A stretch of DNA of 13,232 nucleotides, taken from assembly GCA_024278215.1 (NCBI GenBank), contig JAJRTR010000117.1, positions 1 through 13,232 on the forward strand, read 5' to 3'. The translations under genes and the position numbers were made by a program. This DNA comes from a bacterium. Lineage in GTDB: Bacteria > UBP15 > UBA6099 > JAJRTR01. Numbering within the stretch: position 1 is the first letter of the stretch; each line of letters begins with the position of its first letter. Shown piece after piece: positions 257 to 12,633 of this stretch. A model generated the notes under the pieces. It worked only from the letters and a program-made list of their open reading frames with translations. It did no database searches and was not told the origin of the DNA.

Positions 257-922
257 ATGAGAAGATTTCTTGTGGTTTTCCTGGCAGTCGTTTCTATCGT
301 GGCAGGAGGGGCCGCCATCGCATGTGGGATGGGGAACATGCACGGCAACGGCAACAGCAACAGCGGACAAAACATGATGGGCGCCGGCGGACAGGCCGGC
401 GACAATACGAATCACGGCAATATGGGCAATATGGGTGATATGGGTGATATGGGTGACATGGGTGACATGGGTGACATGGGTGACATGGGTGATATGGGTG
501 ACATGGGTGACATGGGCAATCATGGAATGACGGGTAAAATGAAGGTATCCGTATCGCCCGAACAGGCCGAAGAAACAATAGGCAAATTCCTCGACAATAA
601 TTTCAACAGGTACAAATATGGGAATATATCACTCCGGGAGAATAATTCAATGATGTTTCCACCGTTATACAGTGCGCCGGTGTCTCTTGCAGACGGGACG
701 GAGGGAACTATTCTCATCGATGCTGTAACGGGAAAGCCCGCGGGGCTGTTGTTCGGCGATTTTGAAAATGCGTTTATGGGATACCACAAGGGCGCCGAAA
801 GCGGACACGGCGATATGGGAAACATGATGATGGACCAAGGTGACGGTTCCGGTTCCGGAAACCGGAGCCACGGCGATATGGAATCGACAGATAATAACGA
901 TGCTCAGCAGCATAATAAATGA
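257..922 (+). CDS. Met-rich exported PepSY-like protein with GDM repeats
   Basis: A 221-residue protein with AAGGAG seven bases before the ATG. Residues 1-22 form a signal peptide; Cys23 after AIA is a weak lipobox, so it could be a lipoprotein. Residues 24-95 are a Gly/Asn/Met-rich linker with a tandem G-D-M run at about 56-88. Residues ~97-175 form a small alpha/beta domain with S-x-x-x-A near its start and LIDAVTGKP near its end, as in PepSY-like domains. The tail is again rich in Met, His, Gly and Asp. The protein at 12079-12633 is a paralogue (VDATTGKP, same order). Met- and His-rich exported segments are known to bind Cu(I) or Ag(I) in other proteins; binding here is inference. It heads a probable operon with the next two genes. 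Confidence 0.8.
422..520 (+). repeat. 9-bp tandem minisatellite, 11 units, in coding frame
   Basis: Eleven consecutive units of ATGGGYRAY (mostly ATGGGTGAC or ATGGGTGAT; the first and last are ATGGGCAAT) encode Met-Gly-Asp/Asn. The unit is three codons, so gain or loss of a unit by slippage keeps the frame and changes only the length of the Met-rich linker. Confidence 0.95.
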
Positions 923-976
923 GCTTCGAAGGATTTCGGTCGTGAATACATTTCAAGCTGAAGGGAGAATAAGGAC

Positions 977-1429
977 GTGAAAAAAATAATAGTGATGTTG
1001 ATTGTAATAGTTGCGGCGGCGGTGTATATCTCCGGATGCGGCGGCGGGAGTTCCATCGCCGCTCCGCAGTCCCGGACCACATCCGCCAGGATACTCTCGA
1101 TATCTCCGTCGGACGGGACATCCGGTGTTGCGACCGATACTGTTTTTACAGTATCATTCTCACAACCTATGAACATGAGTTCGGTTGACGACAATATACA
1201 TGTCTATCAGGGAACCGGCACTTCGGGGAGTTCGCTTACGGGAAATATATCATGGAACGATATGCACACGATGATGACTTTCGTTCCTGATCAGGGTTTC
1301 ATGCCGGGCACAACGCACACAGTGCATTTCGGTACGGGCATGATGAGTGAATCCGGCGGAATGATGATGAACATGTCGGGCAGCCAGATGATGAACCAGG
1401 ATATGTATACGTATTTCACTACTCGATGA
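977..1429 (+). CDS. Met-rich lipoprotein with Big_5 (SbsA Ig-like) domain
   Basis: A 150-residue protein with a GTG start preceded by AAGGGAG at nine bases. Residues 1-20 are a signal peptide ending in the lipobox ISGC, with Cys21 followed by Gly; Asp at +2 is absent, so outer-membrane sorting is expected. Residues ~40-148 resemble a single Big_5 domain: an ISPSDGTSGVATDT start, a VSFSQPM strand, then MTFVPDQGFMPGTTHTV, typical of this Ig-like fold in surface proteins. The C-terminal third is unusually Met-rich (MMSESGGMMMNMSGSQMM), as in the preceding gene. It lies 54 bases after the gene at 257 and overlaps the next gene by four bases (ATGA), suggesting one transcript. Its role is unknown; a structural or metal-binding envelope component is inferred. 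Confidence 0.8.
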   Translation: MKKIIVMLIVIVAAAVYISGCGGGSSIAAPQSRTTSARILSISPSDGTSGVATDTVFTVSFSQPMNMSSVDDNIHVYQGTGTSGSSLTGNISWNDMHTMMTFVPDQGFMPGTTHTVHFGTGMMSESGGMMMNMSGSQMMNQDMYTYFTTR

Positions 1430-2124
1430 AAGAGGGGGCGCGGATAGAAATGGCTTGTTCTACGGATAGCAGGACAAAGGGCTATAGACTCGCTTCGATG
1501 ATTTACGATCCGGTCATCGAACGCGGGATGCAGCCGGTCAGGAAGAAGACACTGGAGATCAGCAGATTGGAACCTGGCGACAAAGTGCTGGACGTCTGCT
1601 GCGGGACCGGCAGGCAGGCGGAAATCTTCGCTGAAACGGGAGCGGATGTCTGCGGCGTCGACCTTTCCGATTTTATGATTGATAAAGCGAGGAAAAAACA
1701 ACGAAAAAGTCTCACCTTCATTCAGGCCGATGCGGCGGCGACCGGATTGGATGAATCTTCTTTCGATGTCGCATCAACAGGTTTCTCTCTGCACGAGGTA
1801 GATGAAGAAACCAGAACAGGGTTCCTGAATGAAATGGCAAGGGTGACGAAACCGGGCGGTTTTCTTATATTCACCGATTTCTCGATCCAAACCCGTAACG
1901 GGTATAAAAACAGGATGCGAAAAGGGCTTGCGCATTCACTTGAATGGCTTGCCGGACCGGAGCACTACCGCAATTACATGGACTGGATGCGTGCCGGCGG
2001 ACTGAAGGGTTTTCTCGCCAGGAAAAATTTGCCTGTGGAAAAAGTATTTCACATGAACGGTGGTCATATTCTTATTGCGAAAGTGATGAATTCCAAATCC
2101 GAAGCGACGATTGCAAAATTCTGA
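1426..2124 (+). CDS. Class I SAM-dependent methyltransferase (Methyltransf_11 type)
   Basis: A 232-residue cytoplasmic protein. SAM motif I is VLDVCCGTGRQ, followed by the acidic VDLS after beta-2, an ADAAATGL motif II region, and VTKPGGFLIFTDF as the post-motif. The downstream EHYRNYMDWMRAGGL is seen in UbiE-like methyltransferases of unknown substrate. The first ATG overlaps the previous stop with no visible ribosome site; ATG 1450 with GAGGGGG 12 bases upstream is an alternative. The last codons (T-I-A-K-F-stop) are read from a repeat fragment (2109-2142), so the tail NSKSEATIAKF is probably not ancestral. The substrate cannot be told from sequence; co-operonic placement with two Met-rich envelope proteins is the only clue. 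Confidence 0.85.
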   Translation: MKEGARIEMACSTDSRTKGYRLASMIYDPVIERGMQPVRKKTLEISRLEPGDKVLDVCCGTGRQAEIFAETGADVCGVDLSDFMIDKARKKQRKSLTFIQADAAATGLDESSFDVASTGFSLHEVDEETRTGFLNEMARVTKPGGFLIFTDFSIQTRNGYKNRMRKGLAHSLEWLAGPEHYRNYMDWMRAGGLKGFLARKNLPVEKVFHMNGGHILIAKVMNSKSEATIAKF

Positions 2125-2142
2125 TTCCGTTGCGGTCGGCTC
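2109..2142 (+). repeat. Repeat fragment providing the methyltransferase stop codon
   Basis: GATTGCAAAATTCTGATTC matches the end of the 179-bp repeat exactly (compare the minus strand of 1-156), followed by GCGGTCGGCTC. It looks like an internally deleted copy retaining one end. TGA at 2122-2124, within the fragment, is the stop of the upstream gene. Confidence 0.75.
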
Positions 2143-2210
2143 ATTAAGTGAACACTATTGGGGATACTGTAATTTGGATATTATAACGAAACTGAGAGCG
2201 CCACGCTGTT

Positions 2211-11509: not shown

Positions 11510-11524
11510 ATCGCTCACCTCCAC

Positions 11525-11953
11525 TCATGGAATCGATCTAAGTGTTGATGGTTTCCCCTTTTCCCGGTTTTCCGGTCTCGCTTTATTCTCAGCGTTATCT
11601 ATGCAATGCGTCAGGTCTTCGCGGTCGACCGGTTTGATGAAATACCGTCGAGCCCCTTTGATGAAACCGGAAAGGCGTGTCGACAGTTCCCCGCAGCCGG
11701 AAACTATGAACACAGGGATATCGGGCACCTGCTTGTCCTGGAATATCTGCCGCAGGAACTCGATGCCGTCGGCCTCGGGGAGCCCGATATCCAGGATGAC
11801 AGCATCGGGAGGGAACTTGTCGACAATACGCAAGGCTTCTTCCGTCGAGGCGGTCTTTATTATTTCCCGTCCATCGCCCTGCAACCACTGTTCGTATATT
11901 TCCCGGTAGCTTTCTTCGTCTTCCACAATAAGGATTCTGAAATTGTTCTTCAT
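11525..11953 (-). CDS. Receiver-only response regulator (CheY-like)
   Basis: 142 residues from ATG 11953, chosen because GAGGGG is eight bases upstream; ATG 11959 sits too close. One REC domain: VEDEE acidic pocket, phospho-acceptor Asp55 in VILDIGLPEADG, Ser85 in VSG in place of the usual Thr/Ser switch residue, and Lys107 in FIKP. No DNA-binding or enzymatic output domain follows, only a charged tail of about 25 residues. Such stand-alone receivers work in phosphorelays or by protein contact. No histidine kinase is in the window. It lies downstream of the Met-rich gene and 15 bases upstream of the small membrane protein. Confidence 0.88.
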   Translation of the reverse strand: MKNNFRILIVEDEESYREIYEQWLQGDGREIIKTASTEEALRIVDKFPPDAVILDIGLPEADGIEFLRQIFQDKQVPDIPVFIVSGCGELSTRLSGFIKGARRYFIKPVDREDLTHCIDNAENKARPENREKGKPSTLRSIP

Positions 11954-12032
11954 TGACATTCCCCTCTCGTATATCCATAGTCGTCATCGTTGAGTTTTCA
12001 GTAATAAGTGATTATGCACAGGATAGGGACCA

Positions 12033-12068
12033 CCGGCTCCCACCGGGTGTGTCCCGGCGGGAGCCCGG
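12033..12068 (-). other. Strong hairpin inside the second Met-rich operon
   Basis: GGCTCCCACCGGG pairs with CCCGGCGGGAGCC apart from one A/C position (G-U on the minus strand), with a five-base loop. It lies between the Met-rich gene stop (12079) and the regulator start (11953). No T-run follows on either strand. A processing or stability element that leaves more of the first cistron is plausible. Confidence 0.5.
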
Positions 12069-12078
12069 CCCGAAATCA

Positions 12079-12633
12079 TTACCAGTTGATGTCGTCGGGC
12101 AGATCCCAGTTTTCGGAAGAATTGGAACCGCCTGTTTGTGTGACGTACTGGTTGCCGCAATGCCACTGGCTGGTTTTGGCAGTGGTATTTGTCGCTCCGT
12201 GGCAGGGCATGGAGGCATAGTGCTCTTCGGAAACCAGAGCGAAGGGCTTGCCGGTTGTCGCGTCGACCAGCAGAACCTCCCTGGTGCCGTCGGAGAACTT
12301 CACATCGGCCTTGTACAGCGTCCATCCCCAACCCATCATGCCATGTGTCGTCTGCTCGACTTCTCCTACGGTCGCATCATTGAGCCTGGCCTTTACGAAT
12401 GTCTCCGCTGCTTTGCGGGCGGCATCTCTGGAAATCAAGTCGGCATTATTCTGCGAATGCATGCCCTGTCCCATCATTCCATGTGCGCCCCCCATCATCA
12501 TACCTTGCATGTTGCCCTGCATCTGATGGGCCCCCGCGCCCTGTCCATTTCCTCCACCGGCTGCGAAGCCGTATCCTCCCAGAGCCACGAGCGCCAGCAC
12601 TGCTACGATTGTTGCCGCATACTTCTTCATCAT
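12079..12633 (-). CDS. Met-rich exported PepSY-like protein, paralogue of 257-922
   Basis: 184 residues from ATG 12633, which has GGGAG eight bases upstream; a GTG at 12642 overlaps the ribosome site. Residues 1-25 are a signal peptide. Residues ~36-59 are Met/Gly/His/Gln-rich (QMQGNMQGMMMGGAHGMMGQ). The domain at ~67-140 starts with ISRDAARKAAETFV and ends with LLVDATTGKP, as PepSY-like domains do. C144 (MPCHG) and C159 (WHCGN) may form a disulfide or, with nearby His, a metal site. The protein is probably periplasmic. Compared with 257-922 it has the same layout and the same VDA-TGKP ending but no long tandem repeat. It heads the operon with the regulator, small membrane protein and methyltransferase. 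Confidence 0.82.
   Translation of the reverse strand: MMKKYAATIVAVLALVALGGYGFAAGGGNGQGAGAHQMQGNMQGMMMGGAHGMMGQGMHSQNNADLISRDAARKAAETFVKARLNDATVGEVEQTTHGMMGWGWTLYKADVKFSDGTREVLLVDATTGKPFALVSEEHYASMPCHGATNTTAKTSQWHCGNQYVTQTGGSNSSENWDLPDDINW

Follow-up and report, generated by a model that had tools for sequence, protein, structure and literature searches.

Two cassettes of methionine-rich PepSY-like proteins and methyltransferases in a UBP15 bacterium as candidate envelope systems for copper or silver

Introduction

Genes for methionine (Met)-rich exported proteins lie together with genes for S-adenosylmethionine (SAM) methyltransferases at both ends of a single bacterial contig, which raises the question as to whether these gene groups form a system and what such a system would handle. 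The contig, JAJRTR010000117.1, belongs to assembly GCA_024278215.1 (GTDB UBP15; UBA6099; JAJRTR01), a genome of 4.5 Mb in 207 contigs that is 95% complete and 1.3% contaminated (G000). The stretch analysed comprises positions 1 to 13,232 of this contig (C91:1-13232) and is referred to throughout as the window. Cassette 1, at 257-2124 on the forward strand, encodes an exported Met-rich PepSY-like protein (PepSY1), a Met-rich Big_5 lipoprotein and a methyltransferase (MT1); cassette 2, at 12633-10614 on the reverse strand near the opposite contig end, encodes a second exported Met-rich PepSY-like protein (PepSY2), a receiver, a small membrane protein and a methyltransferase (MT2). We consider it fairly likely, at roughly two chances in three, that both are stress-induced envelope cassettes for a thiophilic metal, probably copper or silver (Cu/Ag), in which Met-rich exported binders are accompanied by a cytoplasmic methyltransferase arm.

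Results

A second family retains the gene order of cassette 1

PepSY1 (257-922, +), identified as an open reading frame (ORF) with a homologue in a related genome, contains 11.8% Met. A 9-bp tandem repeat of 9.6 copies at 431-516 (+) encodes an (MGD)n tract within it, and matches of PepSY1 to collagen and phage-tail proteins were rejected as composition artefacts of this repeat. The lipoprotein (977-1429, +) starts at GTG, carries the lipobox ISGC, contains 10.7% Met and scores 47.5 bits with Pfam Big_5 (PF13205), for which the cut-off is 23.6. The start of MT1 (1426-2124, +), a class I SAM methyltransferase with a Methyltransf_11-type Pfam match, overlaps the lipoprotein stop via ATGA. The final codons and stop of MT1 are provided by a 34-bp remnant (2108-2141) of a repeat resembling a miniature inverted-repeat transposable element (MITE).

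Searching the class with MT1 returned a single relative (34%, E 1.7e-35; 33%, E 8e-42 by direct comparison), in a genome of the same order and another family (G001). On one strand of contig L134 this genome encodes a PepSY-like protein, a Met-rich Big_5 lipoprotein, a SEC-C/transmembrane (TM)/thioredoxin-like protein and the MT1 orthologue. The PepSY-like protein is Met/His-rich and 29% identical to PepSY1 (E 3e-12), the lipoprotein, in the corresponding position, is 37% identical to its counterpart in the window (E 4e-26), and the arrangement differs from cassette 1 by the inserted SEC-C/thioredoxin-like gene. Because the order of PepSY, lipoprotein and MT1 is retained at about 30-37% identity, a chance neighbourhood is not reasonable, and on the evidence of these gene comparisons cassette 1 is a conserved unit across two families. 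A further search with MT1, of Desulfobacterota, used E<=1e-30 and was too strict to be informative.

All ORFs named in the original prediction, which had described the cassettes as mirror-image operons, are present in the window. The opposite-strand gene content holds, but an origin of the two as duplicates was rejected, PepSY1 and PepSY2 being 26-33% alike and the methyltransferases belonging to different families. MT1 and MT2 had indeed been held not to be close homologues, and they have only the SAM core in common (30% over 121 aa).

MT2 relatives lie beside ATPases of copper/silver type

MT2 is a class I SAM methyltransferase of a family associated with Cu/Ag islands. The gene set predicted for cassette 2 is present, but the start of MT2 is most likely not 11315, where a longer ORF begins, and instead the ATG at 11264, which follows AGGAGG and gives a gene at 10614-11264 (-). 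A motif scan across 84,980 species genomes yielded 518 relatives of MT2, and the best-scoring 80 loci were kept; these come from Firmicutes, Chloroflexi, Deltaproteobacteria, Actinomycetota, Thermococci and others. Their neighbours include P1B ATPases, SHOCT, HMA and YHS proteins, two-component systems and Met-rich exported proteins. When 150 same-strand neighbours within 1.2 kb were compared with 150 genes located over 5 kb from MT2, Pfam tallies near and far were 10 v 2 for E1-E2 ATPase, 10 v <2 for SHOCT, 6 v <2 for HMA and 3 v <2 for YHS.

A P1B ATPase lies within 3 kb of MT2 at 20 of the 80 loci. A null based on random genes taken from these loci is inflated, because those genes too lie within 10 kb of MT2, and we used the genome-wide ATPase density instead. 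Across 41 MT2-bearing genomes (149 heavy-metal ATPase matches over 136 Mb) 14 loci have an ATPase within 3 kb against 0.33 expected (Poisson ~2e-18), the locus ATPases having been found by motif and the genome totals by hidden Markov model. All ATPases that could be typed are of Cu/Ag type, with CPC and MxxSS (P1B-1) or CPH (P1B-3); one was untyped and none was of the Zn/Cd/Pb type. Relatives also occur on plasmids; in Cytobacillus they adjoin the gene of a copper-binding protein of the four-helix-bundle type, and in Thermococcus peptonophilus a TRASH protein and a heavy-metal ATPase are encoded nearby.

The pairing with PepSY recurs in Chloroflexota, where Met-rich double-PepSY proteins carrying the motif PEPGPNMMWN are encoded next to MT2. 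A PepSY search of the 41 genomes was positive in 12, mostly in single copy, and the PepSY gene lies at most 0.7 kb from MT2 in 5 of these 12 and at most 5.5 kb in 7. Some of these genes also adjoin P1B ATPases (G034, G044, G045 and G047, by coordinates). Both the MT2 family and the Chloroflexota PepSY proteins are linked to predicted Cu/Ag genes. It had been allowed that the pairing of PepSY-like proteins with methyltransferases in the window could be coincidental; retention of the MT1 pairing in G001 and linkage of MT2 to PepSY and copper ATPases elsewhere argue otherwise.

What the methyltransferases resemble

Among solved structures MT2 is closest in sequence to the phosphatidylethanolamine N-methyltransferase PmtA (PDB 8ys9), which is also one of its two best matches by fold; identity is only 26%, and MT2 relatives are present in Thermococcus. 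The AlphaFold model of MT2 has a class I methyltransferase fold with a mean predicted local distance difference test score (pLDDT) of 82.9 and a predicted template modelling score (pTM) of 0.80, confidence being low around residues 181-200. Assignment of MT1 and MT2 to UbiE/MenG was rejected (78 and 76 bits against a cut-off of 158 for NCBIfam TIGR01934), as was that of MT2 to PmtA (69.7 bits against 390 for NF045882, a Legionella-type model) and to ArsM (66 bits against 263 for NF008823). Only one Cys, C157, is invariant in a 58-member alignment of the MT2 family; ArsM needs a conserved Cys set.

Cassette 2 shares gene types with a metal operon

PepSY2 (12079-12633, -) contains 7.1% Met and has a predicted PepSY domain at about 12208-12450. 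The label PepSY-like is upheld in part: Pfam PepSY (PF03413) matches neither PepSY1 nor PepSY2 at E<=0.1, but PepSY2 has a weak sequence match (E 0.0013) to a solved PepSY protein, PDB 9vy3, which we take to be of the lanthanide-binding LanPepSY type, and its predicted fold agrees. In the model, residues 65-140 form a domain with pLDDT mostly of 70-91 between disordered Met-rich flanks (whole-model mean 58.9), and Foldseek gave YpmB as the best PepSY-type match (probability 1.00, E 0.047) and also a vibriolysin propeptide; as modelled, PepSY2 is a member of the PepSY fold (alpha plus antiparallel beta). It resembles YpmB and 9vy3 in predicted fold and weakly in sequence but differs in being a single domain with disordered Met-rich tails and no Pfam match.

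A search of its own genome with PepSY2 found PepSY1 and itself only. Among the other six of the seven genomes with which this small phylum was sampled the same query found none, a result that is unreliable as it also missed the PepSY gene of G001, which was found only through its adjacency to MT1. PepSY2 and the lipoprotein had no matches in searches of viral and plasmid sequences.

Between PepSY2 and the receiver lies a strong RNA hairpin without a T-tract (12027-12071, -; -39 kcal/mol, z -3.9), and because it parts the two genes it is not certain that all four genes of cassette 2 form a single transcript. They continue with a stand-alone receiver domain protein (11525-11953, -; Pfam Response_reg) and a 70-aa single-TM protein with a charged tail (11312-11524, -), for which no relatives were found.

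The receiver has one close paralogue among the approximately 98 receiver candidates of the genome (C42:33607-33957; 41%, E 8e-26), encoded beside a SEC-C/thioredoxin protein and a P1B ATPase, in a run of genes that also includes one for an outer-membrane-type protein with DUF3034. This SEC-C/thioredoxin gene product is 44% identical to its counterpart in the G001 cassette, so that the two cassettes and the C42 metal operon interlock through the kinds of gene they have in common. Upstream of the receiver and ATPase genes lie a DUF3347 gene and genes for two His/Cys-rich repeat proteins of the GHYYGCGH type. These His/Cys/Tyr-rich proteins and DUF3347 (L131; G000:C42:34704-37486) are a side observation, and the repeat proteins are possibly a further metal-binding protein type.

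Links of homologues to methyltransferases, receivers and metal genes, which the original prediction had called for, were found on several independent lines. Its suggestion of an undescribed envelope system, possibly for Cu/Ag, gains support from the linkage to Cu/Ag-type ATPases and from the conservation of cassette 1.

A common upstream element

Both cassettes are preceded by an element resembling a -24/-12 promoter of the sigma-54 type, TGGCATTATTCTTGAT at 206-221 (+) before cassette 1 and TGGCACGGTTCTTGAT(CATACAA) at 12672-12687 (-) before cassette 2. The core common to both, TGGCAY-N5-TTGAT, ends about 35-40 bp before the PepSY start codons; the genome has 12 copies of it and a single copy of a reversed control pattern. 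The promoter motif proposed earlier is therefore common to the two cassettes as regards this core, but beyond it the window elements do not align significantly with each other (398/2000 shuffles). The cassette 2 element recurs almost unchanged before the PepSY gene of G001, where it reads TGGCACGGWTCTTG(A)ATCATACAA; none of 2000 dinucleotide shuffles scored as well. Compared with the sigma-54 consensus TGGCAC-N5-TTGCW the spacing and the -24 element match, but the -12 element reads TTGA in all three copies; sigma-54 may be used here. Other copies of the core lie upstream of, for example, two receiver genes. The copy before one receiver gene (G000:C22:13100-13115) is on the same contig and strand as the Cu-type, YHS-bearing P1B ATPase of the genome (7730-9481).

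Discussion

Proposed function

Both cassettes would be members of one envelope stress regulon for a thiophilic metal, most likely Cu(I)/Ag(I). The -24/-12-type promoter would turn on the exported Met-rich PepSY-like proteins, together with the Met-rich lipoprotein in cassette 1, whereupon extracytoplasmic metal could be buffered by their thioether-rich tails and held or presented by the PepSY domain. The cassette 2 receiver may take part in control of the cassette and of the metal-efflux operon elsewhere in the genome, and the methyltransferases would act in the cytoplasm in the same response. Metal binding, the identity of the metal and induction of the cassettes by metal are what we infer from sequence.

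The weakest step is the substrate of the methyltransferases, where our guess is either the head group of a lipid or a small soft nucleophile, thiol or sulfide. Lipid methylation of the PmtA kind is suggested by analogy but disfavoured because the MT2 family has Thermococcus members; thiol or sulfide methylation would fit the many anaerobes among MT2 relatives. It would also fit a possible resemblance of the motif following the SAM core to that of METTL7-type thiol methyltransferases, which is a lead only. Human METTL7B/TMT1B is an alkyl thiol methyltransferase (PMC7921093).

Several observations speak against a Cu/Ag function for these cassettes. No metal transporter was found within the 13,232-nt window, cassette 1 is tied to metal via common gene types only, and the genome's own Cu/Ag linkage is only through gene types in common with C42. 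At the promoter GA replaces the GC of sigma-54 at -12. The 80 MT2 loci are mutually related and not phylogenetically independent, all of them are top hits from a single motif scan, and the 41 genomes were chosen after a first look at the neighbourhoods. The Chloroflexota PepSY proteins, with two domains and PEPGPNMMWN, are a different subfamily from those in the window, and for this reason their case is a parallel pairing of gene types and not whole-cassette orthology. The MT2 of the window itself lacks about 17 residues found in all 58 aligned relatives. The junction of this in-frame deletion of about 17 codons, seen against all compared relatives, lies at 10779-10784 (-); of the family signature the [FC]VFC[ST]VPDP core is present, and the E-H pair after beta-5, conserved in at least 90% of relatives, is lost. 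The reading frame remains open. Because this conserved stretch is deleted the MT2 of the window may be altered or inactive; it is possible that the deletion is an assembly error.

The alternatives differ in what they make of the same genes. Were the methyltransferases housekeeping enzymes of the UbiE or PmtA kind and chance neighbours of unrelated exported proteins, generic Methyltransf_11 matches and PmtA (8ys9) as nearest solved structure would be expected, as is seen, but the MT1 pairing is kept in a second family, MT2 pairs with Met-rich PepSY in Chloroflexota and with copper ATPases in many phyla, and both enzymes score far under the NCBIfam cut-offs for UbiE, PmtA and ArsM. We regard this explanation as very improbable and largely refuted because the linkage is conserved. 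Protection against Met oxidation or redox stress, with exported Met-rich proteins as sacrificial oxidant sinks and the SEC-C/thioredoxin protein and methyltransferase in redox repair, would account for the high Met content and for the thioredoxin-like partner with CxxC that is encoded both in G001 and at C42. It seems unlikely to us, since neither a methionine sulfoxide reductase nor a peroxidase could be recognised next to any of the copies and the MT2 relatives are tied to Cu/Ag ATPases and not to oxidant enzymes.

A response to Zn/Cd/Pb, or to a general metal mixture, in place of Cu/Ag draws on the ATPase in the operon of the receiver paralogue at C42, which looks P1B-2 (Zn/Cd/Pb; DMGA, no MxxSS) and weakens a copper-only reading. 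Some PepSY proteins bind other metals, for example lanthanides, and the weak match to 9vy3 points the same way. Against this, the typed ATPases by MT2 relatives are P1B-1 or P1B-3 and never P1B-2, and Met-rich ligands favour Cu(I)/Ag(I), so that we give such a response a small chance.

Relation to known systems

Accounts of bacterial Cu/Ag defence usually centre on pumps, oxidases and binding proteins. MT2 relatives lie inside or adjoin Cu/Ag resistance islands (CopA P1B-1, CopB P1B-3, HMA, YHS/TRASH, SHOCT and CusB-type genes), whereas the window cassettes have no pump, oxidase or cupredoxin and consist of Met-rich exported proteins, a receiver and methyltransferases only. In Alteromonas and others, merR-copA genomic islands carry an isoprenylcysteine-type methyltransferase (PMC8478169), which likewise travels with copper ATPase genes, but it is named as another methyltransferase family, MT1 and MT2 being class I Rossmann enzymes. 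The literature searched contained no description of the MT2 family or of a Met-rich PepSY/methyltransferase cassette.

A broader picture is tentative and, in our view, somewhat doubtful: a widespread undescribed SAM methyltransferase family of bacteria and archaea would be dedicated to Cu/Ag defence with Met-rich PepSY sponges and a chemistry new to metal resistance (thiol/sulfide or lipid methylation), organised in the window lineage as small cassettes that a -24/-12-type promoter joins into a regulon. The presence of MT2 by Cu/Ag ATPases in many phyla, sulfidic anaerobes and Thermococcus included, together with Met-rich PepSY proteins, may reflect an unrecognised step in soft-metal handling. 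The Met-rich PepSY proteins and lipoprotein could represent new scaffolds for the binding of Cu(I)/Ag(I), and the loci provide a concrete gene list for assay.

Other features of the window

Between the cassettes lie STAS, radical SAM, single-repeat GDT1, raffinose-synthase-like, acyltransferase, MaoC and tRNA-Gly genes, for which no link to either cassette was seen. The GDT1 cation/proton antiporter gene (3852-4172) encodes one repeat only, in 106 aa, and starts inside sequence like a MITE end. The MITE-like repeat, of about 160-180 bp with inverted ends of about 20 bp (GAGCC..TTGCAAAATT), is found at window positions 1-161, 6968-7151 and 2108-2141 and has at least 40 copies in the genome at 90-99% identity. 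At 8238-9254 (-) an acyltransferase runs into the first part of an alpha/beta hydrolase, whose remainder lies in another frame at 7638-8186; the region 7638-9254 (-) looks like either a fusion gene with a frameshift or an error of sequencing. At 13057-13232 (-) there is a Cys-rich Kazal-type-like fragment truncated by the window end. A 58-bp intergenic repeat with a CGGGAT..ATCCCG hairpin and a T-tract occurs at 7279-7336 and 12864-12921, the two copies being 81% identical.

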